Source: Phytoseiulus persimilis | Taxonomy: Eukaryota > Arthropoda > Arachnida > Mesostigmata > Phytoseiidae | NCBI GenBank assembly: GCA_037576195.1 | Contig: CM075101.1 | Coordinates: 18,786,001-18,850,000, forward strand | Length of the DNA stretch: 64,000 nt | Direction: 5' to 3' | In this document: in pieces, positions 7,658 through 60,205 of the stretch | Position numbering within the stretch: position 1 is the first letter of the stretch | How the letters are laid out: the number at the start of each line of letters is the position of its first letter | Position numbers and translations under genes: made by a program | Notes under the pieces: model-generated | What the model was told of the DNA's origin: nothing | Seen by the model: the letters and a program-made list of their open reading frames with translations, nothing else | Databases searched by the model: none

Positions 7658-10279
7658 GCTTCCTCAAAGAGCCCGGTTAAGCTTTCGTTCTCTCATTTTG
7701 GAATAACAGTGGATCCCATGAACGTTGGAAAAAGCGGGGCCAGAATCCTCCCGAATCTGTGTGACTCCGAATGTTGAAGTGCAATCAATGACTTTCAGAG
7801 TGTAACCTCGGAGAGGGAAGTAGAGCGTACCGAGTCCGCAAAGAAAACATCACCGGATTCTCCCGCAACTGATCTTTAGGGCAACCAAACATATCAACAA
7901 CGGCGATTGGGATCCGACGAAAGGTCAAGCATCCTCTCCAAGTGATCCTGAATACGCACAGCGAGATTCTGCTCGTTTCGAGGATGTTCCCCCCTGGGGG
8001 ACCACGAGTGTAGGTGGTGATGGCAGAAACTTCCAATATAACTTGCCGCAGATGTTAGCTGGATCACCGGTGCGACGCGAAATGAGTCCGAGCGAGGGCG
8101 ACTTGGACATCCTCGAACATATTGTTCCCGTAGCAAGCTCCGATAGATGAAACTCGATATATTTACATCTGCCTGTACATACGAAGAGACAGAGACGGGG
8201 GCGGAAATTCGAGGCTCATCCCCGAACGGAAAATTAAATTAAAAATTATTCTCTCAGGGAGTCTCGCTCTTTTGAACGAAATTCAAGGATCATCAACGCC
8301 TGATTTGGCAGTGGGGTACATAAGCATTTTATTAGATACCGAATATGCGATACAATTGAGTGTCTTTTCTTTTATGGCAACGCCCACATTTTCTGTTCTC
8401 AAATCGGTTCTCGACTCCGGTCTACTCGAAATCCTGATTGGTTCTGTTGGGGTCCTCCGTTTTTCTTTGTGTAACAAATGAATGTCCAGAGGCTCGATAC
8501 GTTGAGGTGACCCGAAGTCGAATGTTTTTGCGAGCGAACGCGATCATAATCGTCATCATCGTTAACAATTTTCAGCGATTCACTCACCGTGTTGGGCAGC
8601 CTTCAATCCAGTCACGACTTTCGAGGAGCGGGCTTGTTTCATTGCCCCGGGGTGTCACTGCTCGAAGGCTCCAGCGTGCCTCCGCATTGTCATTATAGCC
8701 GAAATAGAATATAGAATAGCGTAATTATCGGGCGACTCGTAAAATTGAAATGTACCGCAATGCTCAAACGTGAGTTCTTACTTCGCTGGTGACAAATCGT
8801 CTGCTCGGTGCGCTGGATCCGAAAACATGATCTCGCTCCACGCGCCAACAGATGAGAAAAGTTTTGTAGTTCCCGATGCATGAACAAAGGGATAGTTGTC
8901 GACTCTATGATTCTGAGTTCAGGGTGATTTATACAATTCATGTCACGGGCTCTCTACGAGCGGTGCCAATAGTTGAACAGATTTTCGCAAGCCCTAGCCG
9001 TAATGGCATAACGTTACGAAGAATTCAAGGAGGAGAAGAGAGAGAGATTTTGAATGTTTTGTAAGGCATCGGACGACGAACAACTATGCGAGACGCCTCA
9101 TTGCAGAAACTCGTTTCAGATGTCAATCCATAAATTTCCGCCGACCTGACGGTGGGAACGTCTCAGACTGGCGACAAGTTGTGCGCTGTCTTCACGTACA
9201 TCATTGACTATTCCAATATGAGCATGTAACGGTGAATGAAACGCAGGGCGTGCGATTCACCATCGATCCAGCAGAGCATGATCGATCGTGAGCGAGTCAT
9301 GACGGAGTAAAACTGACGTTCACGGTTGTAGATGTTGGCGATTGAGGAATATTCAGACATTCTATAGATAAATTATTCGCTCGATGGTTCACGAACAGAA
9401 CAACAGGTAGGGTATCATTGAATCTTCCCGAGGTGAGCAGGCGACGAGGAGATTATCGGAACGCATGCCGTCCGGAGCCAGCACTCTCATGGTTTGTCAC
9501 AGAAATGTGGTCCTTGATGACTCCGACCACATTTTTTGAGATGACCGCGCATAGCAAATGTTGACACTTTGCAAACAGAAGAAGGAGCTGACTCGCATAA
9601 GGCTGTCCAATCGCTTTCGAAAGACATCTCGGGAAGGAACCCCTCGCCTGATCCCACTGTAGAGATGAACAATGCTCAAAGAGGAAGAATCCATCGCGGT
9701 GTGGCACTTGCGGAAATCAGTGTTCATTGCGAATTCGCCACCACCTGTTCTTCATGGTGAGTTCGGAACTGTTCGGGGAGCTTTCTGAGTAGGGTCATCT
9801 GAGAAGTCGCGACCGGTCTTCTTCTCGTTCGTTGGATAACTGGGAAGCCTCGTCGCGTGCTTGTCTGTCCCCGATTACGTGACGATTCATCTGTGAGCTC
9901 GGCGTGGGCTTGAGATGAGAATCACTTTTCTTTTTCCTCGCTTCTCTCCCACGGCGGATAATTGCTCTGACCCGGCCAACTTCCGTCCACCGTTGACACC
10001 TACTACGATGTCGTCGCATTGTTTACGCTGCCGACATCTGCCGTTAGAACAACTTTCTCCGGTATCCGTCTGTCCGGCCAGCAGGTCTCACGTCGGCGTC
10101 GTGTGTGTTGCGCGCTGACCAGAAAGATGGGAAAAGGTGGCGAGGGTCTCGGAACCCCTCCCCATCCTGAGCTGAGCCGGGCGCCGATCAGTCAGAGCGC
10201 GCGCAAATGTCGCCCGATCTGCGTAAACGTGACACGCGCATTGCACCTTTATCGTGACACTGACCAGTACGGAGTTGCA
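7658..10279. other. Intergenic between SLC13 and cholinesterase-like genes
   Basis: No recognisable coding exon. AT-rich sequence near 8230-8250, with an ATTAAA-type hexamer, could serve 3' end formation of the SLC13 transcript; no canonical AATAAA stands out immediately after its stop. The last ~300 bases before 10280 presumably hold the promoter and 5' UTR of the next gene. Confidence 0.4.
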
Positions 10280-13214
10280 ATGAGGCGCTGGCCGCTCGTT
10301 TTGTTGTGTTTAAATTGTTTCACAGTCTTCATCGATGGAAAATCCTCGAAGCCTTGGCATTATGATAAAGCTGCGCGCATGAAAGCCCGCGAACAGAGGG
10401 AGCTGCCGCACACATTTGTCAAGGCAGGTCTAATACGGGGCACTCGAGCCCAAGTCAATGCGAGGCCTGTGGACGTCTACTATGCCGTCCCGTTCGCTCT
10501 GCCGCCAGTGGGACCCTTCCGGTTCAGGAAACCGGTGCCGGTCAAGAGATGGAAAGGAATCTTGGATGCTACGAGACCGGGACCCCCGTGCACCCAGAAA
10601 GACGTACAAGTGAATCAGTATTACTCTCGGGACTCGGTGAATTCGACAGAGGACTGTCTTCACCTCAACGTGTTCACCGCGGCGCGGTATTGTTTCTCAC
10701 AGAACCTCCTCCACTGTGGATCTAAGCCAGTGATCGTCTTCCTGCACGGAGGAGCTTTCCAGAACGGAGGAAACTCCGATTATGTATTGGATTCCAAGTT
10801 TTTGGCTGTTATGGGTGACGTCGTGGTTGTAATACCGAACTATCGACTCAACGTATTCGGCTTCCTCAATGGAAATGTCACAGAAGAGGTGAGTTTTATC
10901 GTCACGTACCTTCATCGGCTCAACGGATACCGGGAAGTTGATAAGAGCTGAGCCAACGACGGTTTCTGGCCTGGACTTACCACCTGATCAGGAATCAGAC
11001 CATTCTGGCTCCGCTTTTGACGTGATCCTACGTTAATAGGGCTTGATGACCATCGGGCCATACATCTTGGCGTGTGAATGGATTTCGCGAGGACTTGCGT
11101 AGAGGTAGACGTCCCGAATCCCGAGATAAACAGAAGTTCCCAGAACTATTGGATGAGTCCGGAATGACTTCGCGGAGCATTCAGGAGTCCATTTGATTGG
11201 ACAGTTTCACGCCTGAGCCCCGGAATCGGGTGGGGGTTGAAGACTCAAGAATCGGGTGATCCCGATGAGCGACTCATCGTCCTGAGAAGATCTAGTTGAC
11301 ATGATTTGGTTTCGATCTCTCATGGACCCACTCCGGCTCGCGGCTTCAGGGCTCCCAGCCCGACATCAAGCTGAATTAGACACGGGAAACGTCGTTCATG
11401 AACAATACACCTCCTATATGAGAGATGGATCATTCCATCGAATCGTTTTCCGTGATTCGTAGCATACAGCGTGGAATGTCACGGTTTATCTGTGCGAAAG
11501 TCGTTAAGTCATCGACGTTCTCATTCACTGTTCTCACTCACAGTCAACCCTGTGAGAATCGCCGCTCCTTTAGACGTGTCAGATCCCCGCCTCATCAGAG
11601 CTGGGAGCGTAGGCTTGTTTTCAATCTCAAGGAATGGTGCCCTATCGGGAGCTGGTCCAACATCAAGTCAACCGAAGTCAACCAGCTCTCTCTATGGAAC
11701 TGTTCAGCGGAGCGTCGAAGGAGGAACACAATTCGAAGCACATGTACACCGTCCGAGAACCTTCACACAATCTCCATATCAGCTTGTTTTTTGTCTCACG
11801 ATCGAGTTCCCGCTCGATCGGACGCAGACTTTGTCGTTGACAAAATCGGCTGGCGAGCAGAATCAGGGATAATCCATCTATCGAAAACAATCCAAAACAA
11901 GAGTTCCGTTCGGCTTCCCGTCATGAGAGACGAATTTCCGCAGCACAATTTCATTCCTGGATTTGATCGAGCGTCTCGTTGAAACTGAGAATTACAGTGA
12001 CAAACCGTTCCAAAAAATCCACCCGTCCCGAGTCGTGGCCAGGGACGGATTATTTTGAGTCGCAGGGATGTTTTGTTGAGATCTGATTAAGAAGTTTGAT
12101 TTTCACCGCTAACTTTCGCCCTGCAGGTGCCCGGCAACATGGGTCTCTACGATCAGATCCTAGCTCTGGAGTGGATCCAGAAGAATATCGCTTCTTTCGG
12201 CGGGGATCCGCGGAGAGTGACAGTGTTCGGTCAGGGCGCCGGCGCGGTCTCTATCGGGTACCACTTGATTTCTCCCATGAGTCGCGGTCTGTTCAAACGA
12301 GCCATCCTCCAATCCGGCTCTCCATACTGGAAGTTACCTGACAACACTTTCACCGGGAAAATGAAAGTCCAACAACTGGCGCTCGAGCTTGGCTGCGACG
12401 AGTACATCGTTCGCGGTCAGGTCCTGGCCTACCCCCGGGAAGTGATGAAGTGCCTGAGGAGGATACCGTCTCATACGCTCTACGAAGCGATGGCTAAGGT
12501 TTTCGGCAACGATGGCAGCACCATGATACCGAGCTACTTCAACGAGCTGCTGCCGAACGAGCCGATCACTTCTGCAGAGAGAGGTCATTACGAAAACAAC
12601 GTAGAAGTTCTCGTAGGAACGGTGACCGACGAAGGAACTCTGCCCGTGGATCAATTTTTCTGGAAACTGTTCGCTCTCGACTCGTTCTTCAGTGTTCCGG
12701 TGTCGGATATTTGGTTCTATGCGTCGCTGTTCTTCCAATCGGTGCTCGGGAGGAGCGTCGAGCCGATTCGAGGCCTTTACTCACCAGCCACGACAAGCAC
12801 TAGTGACAATTCAACGTCGTCAGCCAAGGAAGCGGTGGAAGCGCTGGCGGCTGCCGTGGGAGACTTCGGCGTGGTGTGCCCCTCGAGTTATTTTGCGGAC
12901 AGTTACTCAAAGCGGGGGAATCGTGTTTGGTTGTATCAGTTCGACCACAGACCCAGCTACAGTGCTTCCCCTGGATGGACAGGTAGGCATTGGAACGCGC
13001 CGAAGGTGTGGAAACGATGCAAGGTAACACAAAAGGTGCAGTTAAATTGACGTCGTGGTTGATTTCTGTTCTTTGTCCACAAGGGGTTGTTCACGGTGAT
13101 GACGTCGGATTCGCGATGGGATATCCGCTGTGGCACAAGTCTTCAACAGAAGAGGAAAAACTCCTGTCCCGACGAGTCATCCGGATATATGCTCATTTCG
13201 CACACACGGGGTGA
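10280..13214 (+). CDS. Cholinesterase-like (carboxylesterase/neuroligin fold) protein lacking the catalytic serine; 3' end incomplete
   Basis: Three exons splice in frame: 10280-10888 (donor GTGAGT), 12127-12982 (phase 1, donor GTAGGC) and 13084-13210 (donor GTGAGT, phase 2). The chosen ATG opens a good signal peptide, [14 protein letters not shown]. Alpha/beta-hydrolase marks of the cholinesterase family follow in order: [15 protein letters not shown] (oxyanion-hole region), [32 protein letters not shown] with the acid Glu372, and GVVHGDD with His492. At the nucleophile elbow the family sequence GESAG reads GQGAG, so the serine position is Gly240. An active esterase is therefore unlikely; such proteins often act in adhesion or binding (neurotactin, gliotactin, neuroligin). 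Without the last splice the frame stops at 13212-13214 right after AHFAHTG; with it, an undetected downstream exon supplies the C-terminus. I did not find a convincing one. Confidence 0.93.
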
Positions 13215-26451: not shown

Positions 26452-26697
26452 GTTGTCGATATCGACCCCTGGGGGTCGATGGCCGATCTCCGATTTACAG
26501 AGGTGATGCCGGATAGGATTCGACCATACTTCTTGGCGTCCACGTAGGTGGATCAAGGGTCGACGGTCGACCCCTTGGAGGACGGCAGTCCATGAACTTG
26601 GGAACCCGAAGAAAACTATGAGTTCCCTAAGGTCTTACAGGGCGGACGAGCTAGATGTTTTCAGTTCAGCTACCTAAGCAACTGGAAATGACTATCA

Positions 26698-27341
26698 AAC
26701 AGCCAGGTAGGCGGAGGCGGAGCATTTTGTAAAGTATGCGTGCTGTTCGCAAGAAGAGACTCCGGACGAGGAGGCTGTCGAACGTTCGGTACATTCGTAA
26801 CGTCGCTCAGTAAATTCAAGAAAGCCGTCGAAATGATTAAAGAGCATGAAAAAGCTCAGTATCACGTTCGTGCGGGCATCGATGCAGAGAACTTCATCGA
26901 GTGGTTCAGGAACAGAAGCAAGCTGGACATCAGAAACATGGCCATCGCCGGGAGGAAGAAACAAGCCATAGAAAGAAGAAATAAGCTCTCTTCCATAATC
27001 AAGACCATTATTTTTTGTGGGAGACAAGACTTGCCCCTAAGAGGCCACAGGGAAGACGAAGATCCTTTCGAAGAACCTTCTCATAATGACGGAAACTTTC
27101 GTGCGCTGTTGAGATTCCGTATCGATGCTGGTGACTCGATTTTGCGGGATCGTCTCAGCCACGCAAATATCAATGCCACTTACATCAGTCCACGCATCCA
27201 GAACGAAGTCAATCGTTGTATCGGCAGAGGTTTCAGATCGAAGATTTCTGCAGAGGTGTCGAAATCGGTTTTTTTCTCAGTTTGGCTGACGAAACACGAG
27301 ATGCGAGCAGATCGGATTAGTTTACAATTTCCCTGTGTTAT
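26698..27341 (+). pseudogene. hAT-family transposase fragment (TTF zinc-finger edge plus DUF4371)
   Basis: The translated frame contains GGGGAFCKVCVLFARRDSG, then FGTFVTSLSKFKKAVEMIKE, then IIKTIIFCGRQDLPLRGHRE, then NDGNFRALLRFRIDAGD. This order (zinc-finger C..C edge, DUF4371 core) is typical of the hAT transposases related to the 52-kDa repressor/ZMYM proteins. Near 27280 a +1 shift is needed to continue into the expected SLADETRDAS, and that frame then stops within about ten codons. The catalytic C-terminal half and dimerisation domain are absent. The region is therefore a dead fragment. Confidence 0.85.
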
Positions 27342-27347
27342 GTTACT

Positions 27348-27614
27348 TCAAGGAACTAAAAGAAAGTAATTGTAGAAAACTTTCTGATGTTTTGCGAAGT
27401 ACTTCTCATCGTATTTGAGCTTTGCGGTAGATTCCACGAACCTGCCGATATCGGTCGCTTGGACTGTCGGCTTGAATCTTTTCGGTTCACTCTGAGGATC
27501 GAGCCTTCAGTCCTCATCCTCTTGGCGGAGTGGCTCTCGAGGAACTTCGACTGTTGCACCATCCGCCGATTTTCTTTCGAAAAACGAAGTCAACGCGGCC
27601 TGCTGTTTCTTCAT
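27348..27614 (-). pseudogene. hAT transposase N-terminal fragment in inverted orientation
   Basis: On the minus strand the frame starts MKKQQAALTSFFERKSADG, meets an in-frame TGA after the acidic EDED, and then resumes in the same frame with PTVQATDIGRFVESTAKLKY and DEKYFAKHQKVFYN before a stop. The SFF start and DIG.FV pattern are the usual amino-terminal block that precedes the TTF finger in these hAT proteins. Here it points toward, and abuts, the plus-strand DUF4371 fragment. The simplest reading is an internal inversion of one element. Confidence 0.7.
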
Positions 27615-36243: not shown

Positions 36244-37271
36244 TCAGGCCTTGTGGTGGACAACGTGGAGGTCGTGATCATCGTGCCCGTGGACTTGGAT
36301 CACATGGGGGGCAGCGTGGGTAGTGTAGGTCACAGGGGCATGGTGGGCAACGGCGTAGGAGACGGGAGCGCTCTGAATGGTCTTCACGACAGTCGGCGCA
36401 GCTTGAGTGTAGGTTCTGATCAAGGGGGTAGACTGAACTGTTCTGATTATAGTGGGTGCAGGAGCAGCGACTTTGATGATGGGAGCGGGCGCGGATTTCA
36501 CGATTGTAACTGGAGCGGGGGCCTGGACTCGAACAATCGGGGCAGGGGCTTGAACTCGAACAACGGGGGCAGGGGCTTGAACTCGAGCAACGGGGGCAGG
36601 GGCTTGAACTCGAACAACGGGGGCAGGGGCCTGAACGAGTCGGACGTTTTGACGCGGCTCTTGAGCACCGTACTGAATCGCGGCCTGTTCTCCTGTGATG
36701 GCGGACGAAGAATACTTCGCATCGGCGGCGTCTTTGGACTCGGTTCCGATTTCGTTCGTGGTAACCTCAGCGCGGAATCCGTTCTCATCTGCGACGTAGG
36801 TTACGGTGCGCTGGCGTCCATCGGCCAGAGAAATGGTGTAGGAGCCCTGACGGCGGTTGTTGGCGTCGGAGGTTTCCTCCTGGCTGTGAGAGCCCTCAGC
36901 GGACTCGGCTTTGTACGCAAACTGGTAGGGAATGGGGGCGTACTGTTGCTCCTGGGCGTACTGCGACGACTGCGTGATGTGAAAAAAAAAACATTAGTCT
37001 GAGATCTCTACGTGCACACAGCATAATGGAAGGTAGAGGCACAGCGAGAGGGAAGCAGTCTTCCGCATTCCCAGACGCCTCTGATAAGGGGAAGGGAGAG
37101 GCTAAGGAGTCAGGGTGTGCAAGATTTCCAAAGAGCTGAGTACATCCGCAGATGAACTCGGGCTGGACAACACGGGAACCAAGAAGTATCCTCTATTGAA
37201 GGAAGAACTCAAATTCAACTCACTGCACCAACGGCGCACAAAGCGGCGAGAGCTACTGAGAAGGCACGCAT
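36244..37271 (-). CDS. RR-type (Chitin_bind_4) structural cuticle protein, secreted
   Basis: Two minus-strand exons. Exon 1, 37271-37224, encodes the signal peptide MRAFSVALAALCAVGA and ends at donor GTGAGT. Exon 2, 36969-36244, begins after TTTCACATCACGCAG in phase 0 and encodes 241 residues to HHKA and stop; the total is 257 aa. The Rebers-Riddiford chitin-binding domain spans about residues 25-85: YAPIPYQFAYKAESAEGSHS, then GSYTISLADGRQRTVTYVAD and ENGFRAEV. After it comes a low-complexity tail in which VVRVQAPAP-type units repeat about five times, then more Ala-Pro-Val/Thr-rich sequence and a His/Asp-rich end. An intron immediately after the signal peptide is usual for arthropod cuticle genes. 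The product should be exported and bind chitin in the exoskeleton. Confidence 0.97.
36515..36635 (-). repeat. In-frame tandem repeat encoding VQAPAPVVR-type units
   Basis: A 30-bp period, read on the minus strand as GTTCRAGCCCCTGCCCC units, repeats about four to five times inside the cuticle protein exon. The repeats keep the frame and encode Ala-Pro-Val-Arg blocks. Such repeats expand and contract readily, so copy number is likely polymorphic. Confidence 0.8.
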
Positions 37272-50100: not shown

Positions 50101-51932
50101 GCGTCGTGGCGCCTGAGAGCTTTTCTAGGGATATCTCCTCACAGGAATTCTGAACGCACAATACAGCGATGCTCAACAGTCTCATTTGAGAGGTACGACT
50201 GAATTTCGAAATGCATTTCGATTAGCCAGAGGAAATTTCCGTTATGGTTTGTGACCAACTAAGAGAATGCGTGATATTCGCATGACCGGAAGAATCGTCT
50301 CGCTGATTCTCGATTCAGAAACATCAGGAGAAACGAGCTTGGCCGTGGCAAGTTTCACTGGACAGCGTCAGTGTGACTCGACTCCAGATTCCGATTCCCC
50401 ATAGCTGCACGGCCTTTCACTTCAACCAACGAATCGGAGGCCTTGTTTAGTTCAGACTGGCCGTCGCTGCCAACAAAATGTTCATAAGAAGCCCCGAATG
50501 TCTGCCTGTTCCACAGACAATAGTCTGATCGAGCGTTGCCTTCTGAGCGAAGCTGAGATACATTTCCGTCTGTCATCTTGTCCGAAAAGGTTCGGGATGT
50601 CGAATCAAAAGCGGTGTCAAGAGAGATGGCCGCTCGACCTGATTCTACGACTGGCGATCAGTATGAAACCGACGTCTCGTCGGGTGGGATGAATCGGTCT
50701 CGTGGACTTCGGAAGAAAACCCTCCACCTTGTTTTAGGAAATCCGTCACGTCCTGAGGCCGAGTATCGATTTGAGCTCGTCAGCGTCGAAATTTTTGTCA
50801 GTAAACGTCCCTGGAGCTCCACACATCTGACCCGTACAGATGGGCAGGAATCGGCTCCCGATTCGAAAACAAGTCCTTCGATTCGATGAATACCCGAGAT
50901 GGGGTCTTCTGATTGTTCGTGGAGCGGCTTGGTTGAGCTCGATAGCCATCGGCGCGAAACATCAATCGTAGGCGGCTTCCGCTTTTTCCGCGAGAAAAGT
51001 CACTGAACCCTACGCTTAGATCAGGCTCAATATTCATGTTCTTCCGATCCTCCCGTTGAAGTCACATGCCAAATCAATTAAAATGAGAAGAACGGCTGCA
51101 CGCTCGAGCCGCTCCGACCGAGCGATGCCTACGGCTCGTCGACGATCGATGGGGAATTTCTCTACACCATCGAGTTCTTAGCTCTGGCTGTCAAGATCGC
51201 TAGCCCACGTTTCGAGTCTACCGAGCCTGCTTTCCAAAACTATTTCCGAGCGGACGGAAAACGAGTCGATCGACTTCATTGGAGCAATCGTCTGGAGCTT
51301 GTCTGGGTGCACCTGTTATGACTCGTGGCAGTTCACCCGAAACTAAGCAGATCGAGTGGAACTCGGAGCCATGAATCGACGAAGATGCGGGGAGACCAGC
51401 AAATCGACAGCGAGATCTCGAGGAACCCTCGTTCTCGCCACTCACAAGAACCACGCTGAGAGATTCAAGTCCGTCGAAGATGCTCGAGGGTTCAATGTGA
51501 GAGGGAGGAGGTCCACCGCCCCACGCAATAAAAAGCCGGGTCGCTCAGACAAGGTTCGAGTTCTCGCTCCGACCTGATCCAGAGCATCACCTAGCTCCTC
51601 AGCAGCTCTTCGCTTTAGAGTCGCAGAGTAGCTCCGGAGCTGAGTCCAGGCGGACTCACAGCACGCTCTTCAACTGTTCGCAAGATCGGGTATGAGCTGC
51701 GGATCGACAGCTTAGGACTATGTGTTTCATCGCTCGGCTTCCTGATTTCACTCCGTCGTGCCTTCGCGCCAAGACTCCGTATAGTATCCGGTTGGCGGGA
51801 GGAGTTTCGTGCGAACACCGAAACTCGCTGTAGTGGCCATCTCTGGACCAAGGTGGCCGCCTCGTGGTTTTTGAGGGCAGCTTCGTCCTCCAAAGTACGC
51901 TCATCCGTCGTCGATAGTGTCGTAGGATTGAA
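47134..51932. other. Anonymous stretch upstream of the microRNA cluster
   Basis: No gene recognised. Frames such as plus 49428-49634 or minus 47873-47493 look mildly protein-like but lack recognisable domains or splice support. The promoter of the microRNA primary transcript presumably lies somewhere here. Confidence 0.35.
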
Positions 51933-51996
51933 TTCTGATAAATATCACTCGGTTTTGTGTATGCTAAGCGAACACCGGGTGCTCATTTGTCAAGAA
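51933..51996 (+). ncRNA. mir-36: miR-36-like precursor hairpin, copy 1
   Basis: TTCTGATAAATATCACTCGG on the 5' arm pairs with CCGGGTGCTCATTTGTCAAG on the 3' arm, with G:U pairs and one bulged A before the terminal GAA. The likely mature product is the 3' arm at about 51973-51994, with CACCGGGT at its start. The loop is 8-16 nt. Family assignment rests on the ACCGGGT core and the arm. Confidence 0.82.
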
Positions 51997-52053
51997 TGAG
52001 TGTCCGAAGTCATCGAGTCGCACCAAAACGAGGAGGATATCTGCTTCCGAGCT

Positions 52054-52124
52054 CTACGATCGTGAGTGAATGTCTGGTGCATTTGAAGAGATTGTGATGA
52101 CTAGAGACTCACTCACTTTTGTAG
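52054..52124 (+). ncRNA. mir-279: miR-279-family precursor hairpin, copy 1
   Basis: Base stem CTACG/TGTAG, an asymmetric internal loop, then GTGAGTGA/TCACTCAC. The 3' arm product starts TGACTAGAGACTCACTCA at 52098 and would run to about 52119 (22 nt). It has the miR-279 seed GACTAGA and the first eleven bases of nematode miR-44 as I recall it. It lies 57 nt after hairpin A of the same pair. Confidence 0.9.
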
Positions 52125-52339
52125 AACCCGACTCCCGAAGCTCGCCGCTACCGCGCATCCACCGCACGCCGCCTCCTCCGATACGAATTCTCGAGCCTGC
52201 GACTTCGGCTCTTGGCAGTTAGCTTCCGGTGGGACGGTCTGACAGCCTCGGACCTGGCTCCTAGCGCCATGACTGAAGACCAAGGTCTCGGAGATCGTAC
52301 GAGGGACTGCGGGCTCGTCAGTCTAGCATTTGAACTGAG

Positions 52340-52403
52340 TTCTGATAAATATCACTCGGTTCTGCATAAGTGAAATAAGCACCGGGTGTTCATTTGTCGA
52401 GAG
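52340..52403 (+). ncRNA. mir-36: miR-36-like precursor hairpin, copy 2
   Basis: Same 64-nt architecture; 5' arm TTCTGATAAATATCACTCGG, 3' arm ACCGGGTGTTCATTTGTCGA. A U:A pair at the base of copy 1 is a U:G wobble here. Expected 3' product about 52380-52401. Confidence 0.82.
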
Positions 52404-52551
52404 CGAGGGTTCTTCGTCGTCGAATTGCAAGTTGGCTCAGCAAAGGGTAAGTCAATAGCATGCCGCCTCTTTTTTCTCTGCGTGCTCCACAATCGATAGT
52501 GCATCCACGATGTGGTTCGATTCCTGCGACTATTCTATGAGAAATGAGATT

Positions 52552-52622
52552 TTACAATAGTGGGTGAGCGTCTTGTGCGTCGTAAATAGTTCAGGTGACT
52601 AGAAACTCACTCACTTTTGTAA
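52552..52622 (+). ncRNA. mir-279: miR-279-family precursor hairpin, copy 2
   Basis: The base stem is TTACAA/TTGTAA, a different sequence from the other copies yet still fully paired. The inner stem GTGGGTGAG pairs with CTCACTCAC through one G:U. The 3' product begins TGACTAGAAACTCACTCA at 52596 (to about 52617). Confidence 0.9.
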
Positions 52623-52717
52623 CTATCTCACCCGTCAACTTCACGGGGTCTGAAGACTCTCAAATGCGGTGAGGATCCTTGCAGTGCATGCTGATTCGGA
52701 GCGAAGTTTGAACTGTG

Positions 52718-52781
52718 TTCTGATAAATGTCATCCGGTTTTGTATTTCGAAAACTAATACCGGGTGTCTATTTGTCAAGAA
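52718..52781 (+). ncRNA. mir-36: miR-36-like precursor hairpin, copy 3
   Basis: 5' arm TTCTGATAAATGTCATCCGG; 3' arm product about 52758-52779 beginning TACCGGGTGTCTATTTGT. It starts with U if cut one base later than in miR-36, giving seed ACCGGGT. Nearly identical to copy 4, so copies 3 and 4 are probably the most recent duplication. Confidence 0.84.
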
Positions 52782-52966
52782 TAAAGTCCTGAGTCATCCG
52801 CTCCCCTCACGACCAGCAGAACAAGGTTCTGACGCAGGTATCGGCTTCTCTCCCTGATTTAGGCTTCCCCAGCTTTCAAGCATGAATCTCCCGAGTATGC
52901 ACAATGCCTGAACCATCATTCGTGCACGAATGCACTAGACCCCATACGGAATTCCTCAATCGCTCT

Positions 52967-53038
52967 TTACGGCCGTGAGTGAACGTCTGGTGAATCGTTC
53001 AAGTTCCGTGATGACTAGAAACTCACTCACTTTCGTAG
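52967..53038 (+). ncRNA. mir-279: miR-279-family precursor hairpin, copy 3
   Basis: TTACGGCCGTGAGTGAACG on the 5' side. Base stem TACG/CGTA, internal loop GCC/TTT, then GTGAGTGA/TCACTCAC. The 3' product begins TGACTAGAAACTCACTCA at 53012 (to about 53033); its first 18 bases match copy 2. Confidence 0.9.
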
Positions 53039-53172
53039 AGATGCGATTACTCCGATCAAGGAACGGGGGTCGATAGAATGCCAATATGATGTGTCTTGAG
53101 CTTGAACAGACTCCATCGTGTCTCCCGAGGATCAGCGGCAATTCCTGGCTTATTGCGAAAATAAGACGCGTG

Positions 53173-53236
53173 TTCTGATAAATGTCATCCGGTTTTGTAT
53201 TTTGAAAACTAATACCGGGTGTCTATTTGTCAAGAA
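53173..53236 (+). ncRNA. mir-36: miR-36-like precursor hairpin, copy 4
   Basis: One substitution from copy 3, in the terminal loop. 3' product about 53213-53234 beginning TACCGGGTG. The flanking sequence GAATAAAGTC after the hairpin is also shared with copy 3. Confidence 0.84.
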
Positions 53237-53432
53237 TAAAGTCTTACGTCATCGATTCGTCCCTGTGTCTGCTGGCAACGGAGAACGCTCGTTTCTGACG
53301 AGAAACTGCATGTCTTAAGGTGTTGCAGGGTAGCTCACAGGAGAGATCTGAAGCTCTGGAGACTGACAGACCTAGCAACAGGAAATTTATGGGGCGACAG
53401 TCCTTCATCCGCGGGGAGTCCTCTATCCGCTC

Positions 53433-53504
53433 TTACGGCCGTGAGTGAGTGTCTGGTTCGTCGTGTTGTCCCTCGGATGACTAGAGACTCACTCACTTTC
53501 GTAA
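53433..53504 (+). ncRNA. mir-279: miR-279-family precursor hairpin, copy 4
   Basis: Base stem TTACG/CGTAA, inner stem GTGAGTGA/TCACTCAC, loop different from all other copies. 3' product TGACTAGAGACTCACTCA at 53478 (to about 53499), identical to copy 1 over its mature length. Confidence 0.9.
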
Positions 53505-54427
53505 CGATCAGGAATCTTCGAGCAAGAGACCTCAGGGCCCTAAAAGGGGGGGGGCAATACTCGTGTAGGGGAGATGCAGACTCTGTGGCTCTCCTACCCC
53601 GCCTCAAATGGATGTCGACTTGGTGTAGATGTTTGCGTCTTGCTGACATATGCCATGCTGAAATAAATCGTATATTGATTCAAAACATTCCGAGCTGCTT
53701 ATCACTGGATCTGATGACACGATTCTTGGTCGGGGTGCCACTCCACTCGAGCTAATGAATTCAAAAGAATGGCAACCATCCGCGATAATTAAGATAGCAG
53801 ATAGTACTGTGTTTGGTGATGGTTGCCTGTTCATGGTGTCCAGTGAGTTTTTCAATCGATGTGGTTGCATCCACATCGAATGGTGAGTTCACGACGAGCT
53901 TCTCACAGGCCTCAGAAACCCAGCGGCGTCATTTTCAGCGAGGAACGTTGTCGGTCGAGCTCCAAGTTGTTTAGCTGGCAGCAGAAGAGCTCTTCATCCC
54001 GAAGGAAGCCCTAACGCACGAGAGATTCAAAAGCTGTTTTAGCTCACATCTAAGTCCGACAAAGCTGGAGAGGGTTTCTTTCTGAGTGCGGAAGGCTTCC
54101 GATGACTGAATGAGATGAATCTATCATTTTCCAACAAGCCATATATTCCGGGATCACGCCTCGCGGGGGGGGGGCGAACTATCTTGAATCACATGACTCG
54201 GCTCGGTATGAAGAGACTGATAGAGCAGCGCAACAGCTGCATGCTCAATGCGTTTGGACTTTCGAGAGATTTGAAATGTAGGGAATCCAGCGGCAAGCAG
54301 CCGAGGGATCAAGATGTCCTTCTGCCAATGCAGAAGTCTCCTGGGCATCAGCAGAAATTCAGAGCTCTCGCCAAGAGTAGAGCAGCTGGTAAATCGAGTC
54401 ACGTCACTCGGGTGCTCTCGACTGGAG
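53505..54427. other. Spacer after the fourth hairpin pair, no gene recognised
   Basis: Contains a G run near 53547-53555 and an open frame near 53690-53880 whose peptide (IIKIADSTVFGDGCLFMVSS) looks protein-like but is short, unsupported by splice sites and unidentified. Confidence 0.3.
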
Positions 54428-54429
54428 TA

Positions 54430-54754
54430 CAGTACAACCTCGATTATTTCAACCCCGATTATTTCAACCTTCCGCATTTCAACCTCGATTATTTCAACTC
54501 TGCGGAACAGGCCGAAGAATGTTTAGCGGAATCGTATTTTTACGTGGAAGATGAATCCATAGTTCAGAATCTTCCATCGTCAATGTATCTCGTATGTTTC
54601 TAGATCGGTTAGCGTTCGAACTCGGACTCCCACCCCCCGAATCGGTTGCGGAGTCCAAGAATGTGGGTGATTTTGCCATCTCTCGAATATTTCAACTTCC
54701 GATTATTTCAACTTTTTTTTGCATCAATTGGTTGAAATATTCGAGGTAGTACTG
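54430..54754. mobile_element. 325-bp pogo/Tigger-like MITE
   Basis: The ends are inverted repeats: CAGTACAACCTCGATTATTT on the left, and on the right the reverse complement of CAGTACTACCTCGAATATTT. They continue into TCAACC, and a TA dinucleotide lies on each side (54428-54429, 54755-54756). CAGT...CCTCG ends and TA duplications are typical of the pogo/Tigger branch of Tc1-mariner. Direct repeats of GATTATTTCAACC-type units follow the left end. No transposase is present, so it depends on an enzyme elsewhere. Confidence 0.8.
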
Positions 54755-54756
54755 TA

Positions 54757-57700
54757 TGTTCTTCGGCACAGAGGAACACTCCGCTGTCAACCCGGTCCAG
54801 CCCGTGGGCTCCGAGTGGCCAGATTGCTCCAACTCAATCTGATTCAGAATTGCTCCAAATATATGAGGCGTCGTTCTTGGAGATAGACTTCACTGCACTC
54901 CGGGATCTGACAGCATCATCAGTATATCACGGAATCAGTTTCCTGTACTGGCAGCATGACTACTATTCACGGCAGAAGGACACTATCTCAAGAGCTGGAC
55001 CAAGAATGGGAACATCTCTCGCTGAGGAACGTCCAGGAGCTGAATAAATGTTGTTGCGCGAACCTCGTGAGAGAGTTCAAAACCCACGGGAGCAAACGTG
55101 ATTGGTACTTGCTCGTGCTCGCACACATGGAAACACCATTCGTGGAAATCATGGGGATGGAACTAAGAGCAGAAATCGTGTCTGCGTTTCACAAATTCGT
55201 CGAAGGGTGGAAGAGCCAATCCGACACAGCGAGAGTAGGACCCGTAGGTGATCAAATAGATGTATCCAAGAAGTCACATCCTCGCCACACACCTCATCCA
55301 TGGCTTCCACCATCTTATACGGAGTAGTGGCAATAACTGTCACGTACCGAATCACTCGTCTTCATGCAGATACTGCGGACAGAACTGCGCACGAAATCAT
55401 GCCATGGTATGCCAGAAGAGTCCCAGATCAAAAGAACTAGGAGGCTCATAGTTCCATGAACTCTCAAGATACAAGCAATCTGAATAATGGTCCATACTAG
55501 TCCACATGTTAAGGGGAGTGAGATTTCTTCACTCCCTCGACTCCACTAGTTTCCACCGCCACTCAAAGAACGAACACTAGAGGACTTTCTGATACGGCAT
55601 GCAGCCGTATGACGTGACCAAATGTACGGTCTGCAGCCCACGCCGCCCGCCGATGTGGTCGATCGAGAACAAAGATGATTGTCTCAATATTGCACTCCAG
55701 TTTACCCCGTCGTTCGAATGGCACGAGCGTTCCCATAACGTACACTCCGGAACCTCGTCCTGAATTCCCGAAGATCTCGACGGCACCTCTGAGCCACTTC
55801 GGGATCATGGAATGTGAGCAATGGAGTGTGAAGTTCTGGAAAAACTTAGAGAGGAGTTGCTGGAACCATGATTTCCCACATTGCTGGCATAGGCTTGATG
55901 GGACGGGTGTCACTGGGCTGAATGCAGAAGAAAAAGCTATCCAGAATTCCAGGTTGGGGCCGAGGGATTTTGAAAGATTTCCGCCGATCACGGAGTTGAG
56001 GGAGAAAAAGAAAACACAGGATTTCTGACCGGCGCGAGAAGGCCGGTTAGACTCTGTGAAATTGAACCCCCCAGCGTCATTTGGTAAAACACCGTTGGAG
56101 CTTGGGTGAATGAGCTAAGAAATTGACTGAATTCCCCGATCGAAGTTCGAACTTATCACGTGGGAGTTCAGAAGGGATGGTCAATTCAGCTGTGTTTTTT
56201 GTGGGTCTCGCAGCGGCTCCACGGGATCGGTAGGAGCACGTATCAGGGCTGTCTTGAATCCTTCCGAGCTTGCCCGGAGTTGTTTGGGTCTCGCTTTTTC
56301 CAATGCCATCAAAGTCGCTGAAATGTTTCACAGGAGGAAGTCTGCCGGGATGCGCTCTCTCCGAGTCGAATAACAGGGTAGTTCGAGCAGTGTCGGTGAT
56401 CTCCTTGATTGAGCCGACCGACTATTTACCACAGTGACTTGAATTCTCACCAGACGGGTAAATATGCTTCGGTGCCTGAAACATTCTCAATCACTCAATG
56501 CGCTCCCTTCTGAAGATTGAATACCGAGGCGCCCAGATAGACACTTCGAGTACTGTGACTGTACACTGTCAAAGTGGCCAAAGATCTAGGTCGAAGGGGT
56601 ATTCGTCACGAGAGCCGTTTGGGAACGGTGGTATCCGGACTTGATCATTGCAGTGGTAGTTTCTCGGTGATCTCATATTCGGGTCACAGCGGGAAAATAC
56701 ACTGGACTCCCAACTCCATTCATGCGAAATCCACACCCAGAGCCTCTTCGAGCAAATACATCTACGAAACCTTCCCCCTTCGCGTTCTGATCTTCACAAA
56801 ACCCTGTGTCCCATGATTGGTATGCTCTCTGGGAGCTTTTTAGAGGGTCTGAGCCACTCCCCAGGGTTCCAAGAGACCGGGTCGATGATAAACTGATAAC
56901 ATAATCCGCATGAAGCAGACGAAGTCTCTCGAATCAAGGTTCGTCAGCGTCAGTTGCTGAAATTCGCACAGTAATTTTGGCTGAGTACAGATTCTGTTCA
57001 TGGAGATTACGAGACTCTCGAATTGCGGATATCGTGTCCCGACAAAAGATTCTTGATAACCTGGGCCAATTCGAGTGTATCTCTCGATATGAAGTTCCAC
57101 GATGTCTGGAGTGGACGCCAAAAAAAAATGGAAGAGCGATCGTCCCTCCAGCCAGTCAGACGGTCATTCATCTCGCAGCCACCGACTTCCGATTAGACGG
57201 CTTGCCCGCCCGACCGCTTGTCTGCTCAGTGGATGGTTGGTAGATGCTCATACCCAGTGTAACGAACCCGCACTGGAACATGAATACGGTCGAGTTCGGT
57301 TTGAATATCATGGACGGTGCTGGTTCGGCTGTTGAAGTTGAAAACGATGCGTTTGGTACATGTCTATCCTCCGCATTGGAGGGGAGCATTCGCCCCATGT
57401 TTCAACACACGTGAGGAATTTTAATCAGAATATGAATCGGGAGAGACGCCGCGGTCTTGATCCATCAAGACCCTAAAATGTACGCAAAGACGCCGATCGG
57501 CTCCTCCGCTGCTTTGGCGGGGGGGTAGGCATTGTTTTGGCGCGCTTCGAGCTGCGACTCTCCTCTCTCAAGGCTTCTACACATGACCGTAGTAATTCGG
57601 AACCTGAGCCCTCGAATTGATTGAGTGGAATCAGAAACGAGATTGTTTGATGACAGTTTGAGGGGTGTCGAAAATCCCACAGGATTCAAGCGTAAAGAGA

Positions 57701-58328
57701 CCTTCGAGCGTCGGACGACTGAAATTCTTCTTCCCCTGTTTCCCAGCTTCGGAACATTATTCGGATTGTGCGTTGCTCAAAATATTATTCACTGTTTGAG
57801 CTGTTTGGCGGTTAACTCACTTATCTTATCCACAGCTCTGTTTGTTCCAGATAACGGATGGCAATTGTCTAGATATCTGAGAGATTTCACAAAAACTCAT
57901 TTCGGGCGACGCTCGGGGGTGCGGAAGCGTATTCCGCCAGTGGGCGCGCTCCGTACACTCTTCTACGAACAGGTTCACTCTCCATAGACGGTGAGAAGGT
58001 TCCGCAGGGTCTCTTTAAAACGGCCGCTAGGAGACCTCAGAATCACTCGAAGCCTACGCGACTCAGTCCGTGCATCGAGGTTCTCCATACAAGTACGATA
58101 GACATGCTGTCGATTCTACGGCCTATCCCGTTCAAAATGGAACTTCTGCATCCCAGGACTTCACGGAGGGGAGACATGGAGAAATTCCCTGGAGAAAAAC
58201 CTACAAGCACAGGTATCAGTTTCGTATTCCCAGTTTCTTTCTCAGATTCATCGTGGGTTCAACGGAACATGATTCTGCGGAATATTTGTGGAAGGATGCC
58301 TCGATTGGAATGCTTCAACTGGTCTGAG
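54757..58328. other. Stretch between MITE and fifth hairpin pair, no gene recognised
   Basis: Overlapping plus-strand frames at 54850-55450 encode protein-like peptides, including a cysteine/histidine cluster (SSCRYCGQNCARNHAMVC) near 55355-55410 that recalls a zinc knuckle of a gag or DNA-binding protein. The frames shift and carry stops. A minus-strand frame at 57121-56840 also looks protein-like but is unidentified. This may be decayed mobile-element sequence inserted between hairpin pairs 4 and 5. Confidence 0.3.
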
Positions 58329-58391
58329 TTCTGATAAGTACTACCCGGTTTTGCGGAGAAAAGCTGAAACCGGGTTGTCATTTGTCAATAA
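58329..58391 (+). ncRNA. mir-36: miR-36-like precursor hairpin, copy 5 (distant)
   Basis: 5' arm TTCTGATAAGTACTACCCGG; 3' arm AACCGGGTTGTCATTTGTCA, expected product about 58368-58389. Relative to the other copies the stem pair runs CATCCGG/CCGGGTG have become TACCCGG/CCGGGTT: the two sides changed together. Seed ACCGGGT is preserved. Confidence 0.82.
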
Positions 58392-58489
58392 CGAAAGACC
58401 AACATCCTCGATCAACGACTCTCAAGAACGTTCCCCGTCTGACAACGCAACGTCTGCCGACTCCTAAAATATCCGTAACAACCGGGTGC

Positions 58490-58561
58490 TACAGTCGTGA
58501 GCAAACGTCTGGTGCATCGTGTATAGAAACCGCTGACTAGATGTTTTCTCACGCGTGTAGT
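58490..58561 (+). ncRNA. mir-279: miR-279-family precursor hairpin, copy 5 (distant)
   Basis: Base stem CTACA/TGTAG; the next stem GTGAGCAAAC pairs with GTTTTCTCAC, a block changed on both sides relative to copies 1-4. The 3' product at 58535-58556 begins TGACTAGATGTTTTCTCA, so the seed is intact while the 3' half differs. It lies 98 nt after hairpin A of this pair. Confidence 0.88.
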
Positions 58562-60205
58562 ATACCGACTACTCAACATTTCGCGGACCACTTCCTGGAA
58601 AACCTTCCTCGGAGGCACCCGGGAGCATTGAGCCTCAAAATCTGAGATACCAGATTGGTGATAGCGATCTCTGCGTGCGGAGAGGCGTTCGCTCGAGAGG
58701 ACTCGGAGGACGCCGCGTAGTAGGAGGCCATCTCATCGGAAAGCAGGAGTTCCGAGATTCACAGAATAAATGGATGCCGCGTCGTGAAGAAAGTTGCATT
58801 TCTTCCTGTTGGACAGGAACAGAGCCGAGCCGCATGTAGTTCCGGGATTCGTGCGGAGGCTGTTTTCGCTTTCTCAGCTTGTGGAGAGCCTCATACGGGA
58901 CTTTCCTCCATCAGCGTTGAGGAGGGTTGGGCAGGGATAAATTCTCTCGGGATTCCCGCTTGCTGGGAGACCTCTACCCAACGATTTCACGCCCCATCGG
59001 AGACGAACCATGCATGGATTATTTTGGTGAAACCGTCCCGTTTCACTGACGCTCACTCTTGAGCTCGTCCTCGATTCTAGTGGCGTCTACACTCCAGAAC
59101 TCTTCTCTGTGTAAGAGCTTGCAGGGAGCTTGCATTCTGTTCAATGACTGCAATTCTTTCAGATTTTCTGAGCTCTCCCAACGTTCCGCTGAGGGCCTAG
59201 GTAATTTCTCCTCAATTCAAATCTGTGTGAATGGCGTTATCTGCCGCTATCTCGATGGAGGTGCAGACGGCGTTCTGTCCTGGCTTTTGACCGCAGTTGA
59301 GACATTCGTAGTATCGCGGCTGTTATCGTCTGAAGACCAGCAGAGAGAGGGAGAACTATTTGCCTCAAAGAGCTGACGTGAAAGAGACACTAGAGTGTCT
59401 TCTCGTGTTGCATGCGGAGCGAAACTTCAAGTGATATGAATGTTGTCTTGCCAGCACAGCAGATATTCTGTACTCCTCAAAAGTGCTGGAAACCATCTCT
59501 CCAAATCCAGAATCTCTGGCCATGTTGGAGAAAGTTTGCATTTGTCGAATCGCTCGTCGAGACTCATTGATGGCTCCTTCAAAATTCGGAGTCTATGAGC
59601 TCCCGAAGATGCGATCCCAGAGAGAAGCTCGGGCAATGCGTCGTAGATGAAATGGAGCCAGAAGAAACGGGAAAGTGCTCTGGATCATTCTCGTATCACT
59701 GTAAGCATGCTCGATTGAATTTCATACTCATTCGATCCGAGTCTGGGTAATATTCGCGGCAATGGCTGTACAGAACCAAGCTTCTCGACATTCTCTCCGA
59801 ACAGAGTTGGAACTACAGAAACCATCCCCGGAGAGTGAGCCTTTCGAACCAAGGCTGCCCCTGTTGATGTAGCAGCGCATGCATCCAACGTAGTCTCGAT
59901 GACATTGCATGGGCTTGCAACCTTGTTCACCATTGTTCATCGTCAGCCACGCCGACCAGAGGCCGAATGATGTTTCGATTATACTGGGAATTCGTTGAAT
60001 GACTCTGTCTGATCTGTGGAATCACGGTGGATTCCCCTCCGAATTCCATGCCGGTCGATCGATACCATCGGGTTCGACTTGTCGATTGCTCTGAATAACG
60101 TGGGCATCACTGACGCCGAAGCGAGCGATTCAAACGCAACTCCAGCTCCGTCGTTCCTGCCCGAGAGCAACTACTTGCGCGGATCCAAGCTTCAAAAGCT
60201 GGATG
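58562..60205. other. Anonymous stretch downstream of the microRNA cluster
   Basis: No gene or repeat recognised; open frames on both strands are short and mutually overlapping. Confidence 0.35.

Follow-up and report, generated by a model that had tools for sequence, protein, structure and literature searches.

What is encoded where hairpins of two kinds, each resembling a known microRNA family, alternate five times in a mite genome, and how does such an arrangement relate to the clusters of insects and nematodes in which similar seeds lie side by side? The question is raised by a stretch of 64,000 nucleotides from Phytoseiulus persimilis (GenBank assembly GCA_037576195.1, contig CM075101.1, positions 18,786,001 to 18,850,000 of the forward strand; here called the window), in which the hairpins lie between 51.9 and 58.6 kb; the locus is on C1, a sequence of 54.7 Mb in a genome of 181 Mb. 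An original prediction had read it as a tandemly amplified microRNA cluster, the first hairpin of each pair (A) being likened to miR-36 and the second (B) to miR-279. Judged from their sequence, the ten hairpins are very probably real microRNA genes, and it is probable that the five tandem pairs form a microRNA cluster with guides from the 3' (3p) arms of both B and A, acting in the oocyte or early embryo.

All ten hairpins were found on the + strand at the positions that had been claimed, in A-B order throughout. Pairs 1-4 are packed into 1.6 kb, and pair 5 follows after a gap of 4.9 kb. The first pair consists of A1 (51921-52008; 3p arm at about 51972-51993; fold z-score -3.44) and B1 (52044-52135; 3p arm from 52098; z -4.29), the second of A2 (52328-52415; 3p arm at about 52379-52400; z -3.86) and B2 (52542-52634; 3p arm from 52596; z -4.49), the third of A3 (52706-52793; z -4.71) and B3 (52957-53050; 3p arm from 53012; z -5.47), and the fourth of A4 (53161-53248; z -6.11) and B4 (53423-53516; 3p arm from 53478; z -4.49); beyond the gap lie A5 (58317-58403; z -6.3) and B5 (58479-58572; 3p arm from 58534; z -5.95). 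Every A contains ACCGGGT and every B contains TGACTAGA, as had been noted, giving five + strand sites of each in A-B order. Counted on both strands of the window, TGACTAGA occurs 6 times (1.5 expected) and ACCGGGT 11 times (4.3 expected), and neither count was reached in any of 100 shuffles. The distances from ACCGGGT to TGACTAGA within the successive pairs (124, 215, 253, 264 and 165 nt) are consistent with the A-to-B spacers of 57, 148, 185, 196 and 98 nt first proposed. The word in the A 3p arm is CACCGGG in A1 and A2, TACCGGG in A3 and A4, and AACCGGG in A5, and the B 3p seed GACTAGA (GACUAGA in the RNA) is kept in all five B hairpins, including B5, the 3' half of which has diverged.

Several observations bear on whether these are microRNA genes. 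When the minimum free energy of each hairpin was compared with that of 1000 dinucleotide shuffles, the check that had been proposed along with the prediction, only 0 to 3 shuffles were as stable, so that each of the ten surpassed at least 997. Raw stability is undistinctive in this region, A3 ranking 1147th among 6392 overlapping windows of 90 nt, 480 of which contain a single-loop hairpin of 26 bp or more. Stronger evidence than the fold z-scores is the profile of conservation across copies, which in A stands at 85% in the 5' (5p) arm, 82% in the 3p arm, 41% in the loop and 26-31% in the flanks, and in B at 79%, 84%, 30% and 26-30%, respectively, against 25% for random sequence. The combination by which microRNA genes are recognized, a stable hairpin with conserved arms and a variable loop, is thus present. 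Two-sided changes were seen at 7 of 30 base pairs in A (shuffled mean 3.7; 3 of 500 shuffles as high) and at 11 of 32 in B (shuffled mean 4.6; 0 of 500), in a test biased in favour of the structures because these were derived from the same alignments; for further pair types in A, 154 of 500 shuffles were as high or higher. In animal primary microRNAs the CNNC motif serves to signal the Drosha site. It is found at +16 to +18 past the assumed Drosha cut in eight of the ten hairpins (all five A, B2, B3 and B4, not B1 or B5), as compared with 18.8% of window positions, and in nine or seven of them if the cut is moved by one base; because the ten hairpins are related copies, the binomial value of 5e-5 for this count overstates the case. 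Taken as a prediction from sequence, the microRNA cluster is well supported by folds, arm conservation and paired changes.

The copies do stand in tandem, as those of a mobile or tandem repeat unconnected with microRNAs might, yet such an origin is very improbable and was rejected, since the spacers are unrelated to each other, conservation is limited to the arms, and the searches made found A at this locus only. BLAST with A1 returned A1-A4 alone and BLAST with A5 returned A5 alone. Models of A and B run over the window gave no copy beyond the ten, and in the sequence flanking the window, about 29.5 kb on the downstream and 9.5 kb on the upstream side, the B model had no match at E<=10 and the A model a single one at chance level (11.3 bits, E 3.9). 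A loose A pattern allowing up to 3 mismatches gave 1179 matches against 722 in the control, and only its two 0-mismatch places were used, both of which are inside the cluster; seven non-cluster loci from the same pattern had no match to the A model at E<=10. In the searches made, then, A is confined to this locus.

The identity of B is the clearer of the two. Rfam mir-279 matches all five B hairpins, with 41.8 bits for B1 (E 7e-6), 35.6 for B2 (E 3.2e-4), 28.5 for B3 (E 0.027), 32 for B4 (E 0.0031) and 32.6 for B5 (E 0.0022), and mir-44 is also matched by B4 (31.8 bits, E 3.6e-4), by B2 (28.2 bits, E 0.0044) and weakly by B3 (18.6 bits, E 2.8). The gathering score of mir-279 (RF00754) is 56 bits, and because all B scores fall under it the hairpins are labelled MIR-279-like; the two best mir-279 copies of the genome, on C53, also fall short of it (50.3 and 49.0 bits). 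With the shared seed, the matches uphold the proposed likeness of B to miR-279 at scores below the cut-off. The stretch UGACUAGARACUCACUCAC is common to four of the five B hairpins, and the exact pattern TGACTAGARACTCACTCAC occurs at 4 places in the 181 Mb, all in the cluster (reversed control, 0). Another pattern, CACYGGGYAAAGTNTGTC, was discarded, having 42 matches against 83 for its reversed control.

At least ten mir-279-like loci were found in the genome, a lower bound from 57 scored candidates of 8442: the five B hairpins, two on C53, and one each at C1:6.87 Mb, C2:35.8 Mb and C4:23.8 Mb. The two C53 loci (65260-66385, - strand) have the look of canonical mir-279 hairpins and, separated by about 1 kb, recall the mir-279/996 pair of insects. 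Cluster B resembles mir-279/mir-996 in seed and hairpin, and the genome's own C53 pair splits off in the tree of the ten loci, on a branch (95/94) that separates it from the other eight, cluster B included. A solitary B-type hairpin at C1:6867577-6867648 (- strand), 12 Mb from the cluster, is 81% identical to B4, has a score of 62.1 bits under the B model of the cluster and groups with B2 and B4 (82/91); in 20 kb around it the A model had no match at E<=10. The hairpins at C2:35812666 and C4:23763179 (both + strand) have TGACTAGAAC 3p arms and group together (90/86). Within about 8.6-10.7 kb either side of the five non-cluster loci there was no convincing A copy, and a single piece near C53 (10.5 bits, E 6.3) was at chance level.

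For A the proposed likeness to miR-36 stood in part: A1 and A2 have the seed CACCGGG, and the other three copies differ. A 3p product starting as in miR-36 would have three different seeds among the five hairpins, whereas one starting a base later would have ACCGGGU in all five. The only Rfam match of A, a weak one in three of the five copies, is to insect mir-3. No MIR-36-type family was among the matches of A at E<=10, the presence of such a family in Rfam 15 being unchecked. In a search of 10 kb, mir-3 scored 24.1 bits on A1 (E 0.61), 22.4 on A4 (E 1.8) and 21.7 on A3 (E 2.6); with A1 searched alone the same 24.1 bits correspond to E 0.006, and the alignment covers both arms and a distal UUUGUC. 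At E<=10 mir-3 matches neither A2 nor A5, and no Rfam family at all matches A2. None of the A hairpins reaches the RF00716 (mir-3) gathering score of 54 bits or carries the mir-3/mir-309 seed CACUGGG. A whole-genome search with Rfam mir-3 gave no match among the 60 of 18616 candidates scored, which says little. As a control, the initial 50 kb of the window were searched with Rfam, and none of its microRNA families reached E<=10; because E grows with length, this control would reveal a mir-3 match only from about 22 bits upwards. A1 scores 92.9 bits with model R1, which was built partly from A1. On sequence grounds, A is named MIR-36/MIR-3-like and placed in neither family.

This uncertain affiliation invites the view that B is a derived MIR-279 paralogue beside which A arose de novo in mites, its likeness to miR-36 and miR-3 being convergent, and that the pair was then duplicated. 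Such an origin, which we think rather unlikely, fits with the lack of any Rfam match above cut-off, with the absence of mir-3 from A2 and A5 at E<=10 and with the retention of CACCGGG in two of five copies. De novo origins have been argued for insect clusters (PMC3923130), and the available part of the survey of Leite 2016 records mir-3791 in two spiders and the horseshoe crab and in no other chelicerate surveyed, Metaseiulus included (PMC4987109); here and below, statements from the literature refer to the available parts of the papers cited. Against it, the mir-3 alignment of A1 extends beyond the seed over both arms and the distal UUUGUC, and the two seed types adjoin in insects and nematodes as well (PMC3923130, PMC2486268). 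Nor need the 3p arm of A be the active one. The 5p arm (TGATAAAT...) is at least as conserved (85% as compared with 82%), and a product from its assumed start, TGATAAA, would begin with U, in which case ACCGGGT would lie on the passenger strand. We regard this as improbable, because pairing by itself can conserve both strands and because PMC4691753 names 3p products for mir-309/3 and mir-279. The 3p arms of A and B are kept as the candidate guides.

The growth of the array by duplication of whole pairs, as first supposed, can be upheld in part. The distance matrices of A and B are correlated (Mantel r 0.53, 3/120 permutations), a signal that is weak without pair 5 (6/24). A3 and A4 are identical at 70 of 71 positions, loop included, and the likeness is lost within about 15 nt beyond the hairpin, whereas B3 and B4 are 79% identical; this near-identity between unrelated wider flanks therefore points to a later event involving the hairpin only, probably a duplication or gene conversion, so that here homogenization seems to have affected hairpins alone. 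Among the B hairpins B5 has diverged furthest, and A5 is one of the most distant A copies. That divergence, together with a 4.9-kb gap containing a repeat element and the 2-kb cluster limit used by some authors (PMC2486268), would suit a separate and older transcription unit for pair 5, with pairs 1-4 forming the cluster proper. This division seems to us doubtful, as pair 5 has the strand and order of the other four, and a limit of 10 kb is used by others (PMC6828783). The element in the gap (54427-54757) is probably a repeat of the miniature inverted-repeat transposable element type, with inverted ends matching at 27 of 40 positions and, from 40 scored candidates out of 266, 39 further places 85-93% identical to it.

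If the five pairs are one microRNA cluster, as we favour, their function can be outlined, and we infer transcription, processing, guide arm, stage and targets as follows. Transcription of the + strand, probably into one or two primary transcripts, would yield ten precursors, which Drosha and Dicer would process into 3p guides, those of B with the MIR-279-like seed GACUAGA and those of A with the MIR-36/MIR-3-like ACCGGGU. The two guides would jointly repress messages having sites for either seed, and the tandem copies would increase their dose. By analogy, the cluster would most likely act in the oocyte or early embryo, where it may clear or time maternal and early messages. No host gene was identified, because Pfam matched none of ten single open frames around the cluster at E<=0.1. 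CAGGTAG has no site between 44 and 60 kb, and the shorter CAGGTA has three.

Members of the mir-309/3 and mir-279/286 families are involved in maternal message turnover in beetle and fly (PMC4691753, PMC3923130), and the mir-35 family is linked with early worm embryos, worms having no counterpart of the mir-309-6 cluster (PMC10139094). In tick eggs five microRNAs, miR-279 included, make up 80.6% of microRNA transcripts (PMC3141673). The counts of mir-3791, mir-279b, mir-279e, mir-9b, mir-2944 and mir-309 in Daphnia magna peak in adults, unlike those of mir-279a, c and d (PMC6828783).

Several points weigh against the cluster and function proposed here. The ten hairpins are paralogues, so that neither the CNNC count nor the paired-change counts are independent observations, and the RNAalifold covariation term, favourable for A (-2.44), is unfavourable for B (+0.2). 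No B hairpin attains the RF00754 cut-off, and CACCGGG is lacking in three of the five A hairpins. The two arms of A are about equally conserved, which weakens the choice of guide arm, and the early-embryo role is solely an analogy, drawn from mir-309~6 of insects and from mir-35 and mir-42~44 of nematodes.

Elsewhere in the window, carboxylesterase-family exons lie at 9971-13050 (+ strand), the second with a nearest relative of 78% identity, followed among those covering most of the exon by sequences at <=39%, many of them tick proteins. An open frame at 26692-27369 (+ strand) matches DUF4371 weakly, at a score below the cut-off (E 3.3e-6), and is perhaps a transposase-related remnant. The cuticle protein encoded at 36244-36993 shares 86% identity with one of Galendromus occidentalis, as compared with 61% for Tropilaelaps and 49% for Varroa (8000 best candidates scored), as would suit a phytoseiid or a closely related mesostigmatan mite.

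The closest arthropod parallel, one that the original prediction does not mention, is the insect mir-309~6 cluster, whose homologues are mir-9d~3791 and mir-279e~2944c. There too a CACUGG-type (mir-309/3) and a GACUAG-type (mir-286/279) microRNA belong to one multicopy, fast-evolving cluster (PMC3923130, PMC4691753), and in the mite array hairpins that merely resemble the mir-309/3 and mir-286/279 types stand side by side. Unlike the insect cluster, that of the mite is a strict alternation of two types, with ACCGGG in A in place of ACUGGG. Counterparts of the mir-4/9 and mir-5/6/2944 members of the insect cluster were not found, as the heptamers TAAAGCT (mir-9/4 type) and ATCACAG (mir-2/6 type) occur on neither strand between 49 and 60 kb, and a mir-2- or mir-9-type member was rejected on the same search. 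Synteny with aconitase, found at the insect mir-994~318, mir-9d~309b and mir-9c~318 locus, was likewise set aside, aconitase being on C2 and C4 and the cluster on C1.

The parallel with nematode mir-42/43/44 drawn at the outset agrees with published groupings and clusters: in Caenorhabditis elegans mir-42, of the mir-35 group, and mir-44, grouped with dme-miR-279, 286 and 996, lie within 307 bp (PMC2486268). The worm cluster thus resembles the mite array in setting a mir-35-type beside a mir-279/44-type microRNA, and B4 scores equally on Rfam mir-44 and mir-279; unlike the mite array, it has a mir-2-group member, mir-43, and no alternating pairs. Spider mir-3791, said to resemble the mir-35-41 cluster, has 34 copies in Parasteatoda, 13 of them within 50 kb, and an alternation with mir-279 such as the mite array displays is not reported in the available part of that paper (PMC4987109). 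Should A belong with mir-35/mir-3791, genes of this kind were missed by the same chelicerate BLAST survey, which included the phytoseiid Metaseiulus. An alternating A-B array in mites was not found described in the literature searched, the coverage of which was partial, and the available portions of PMC3763532, PMC3562263, PMC4592253, PMC10499020, PMC11456543 and PMC4378230 do not mention A and B hairpins as neighbours in any mite or tick.

We tentatively propose, as a possibility well short of even, a single ecdysozoan transcript, combining a mir-35/309-type with a mir-279/286/44-type microRNA, as the common ancestor of the mite array, insect mir-309~6 and nematode mir-42~44; it would have been retained for regulation in the early embryo and repeatedly amplified anew. 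The main rival to common ancestry is convergence on short seeds. If true, a common ecdysozoan origin would overturn the de novo insect origin of the mir-309/3 and mir-286 families. The array offers a five-copy system for dosage and homogenization of paired microRNAs, and, as a chelicerate locus alternating both types, it provides an outgroup for the question discussed by Ninova et al.

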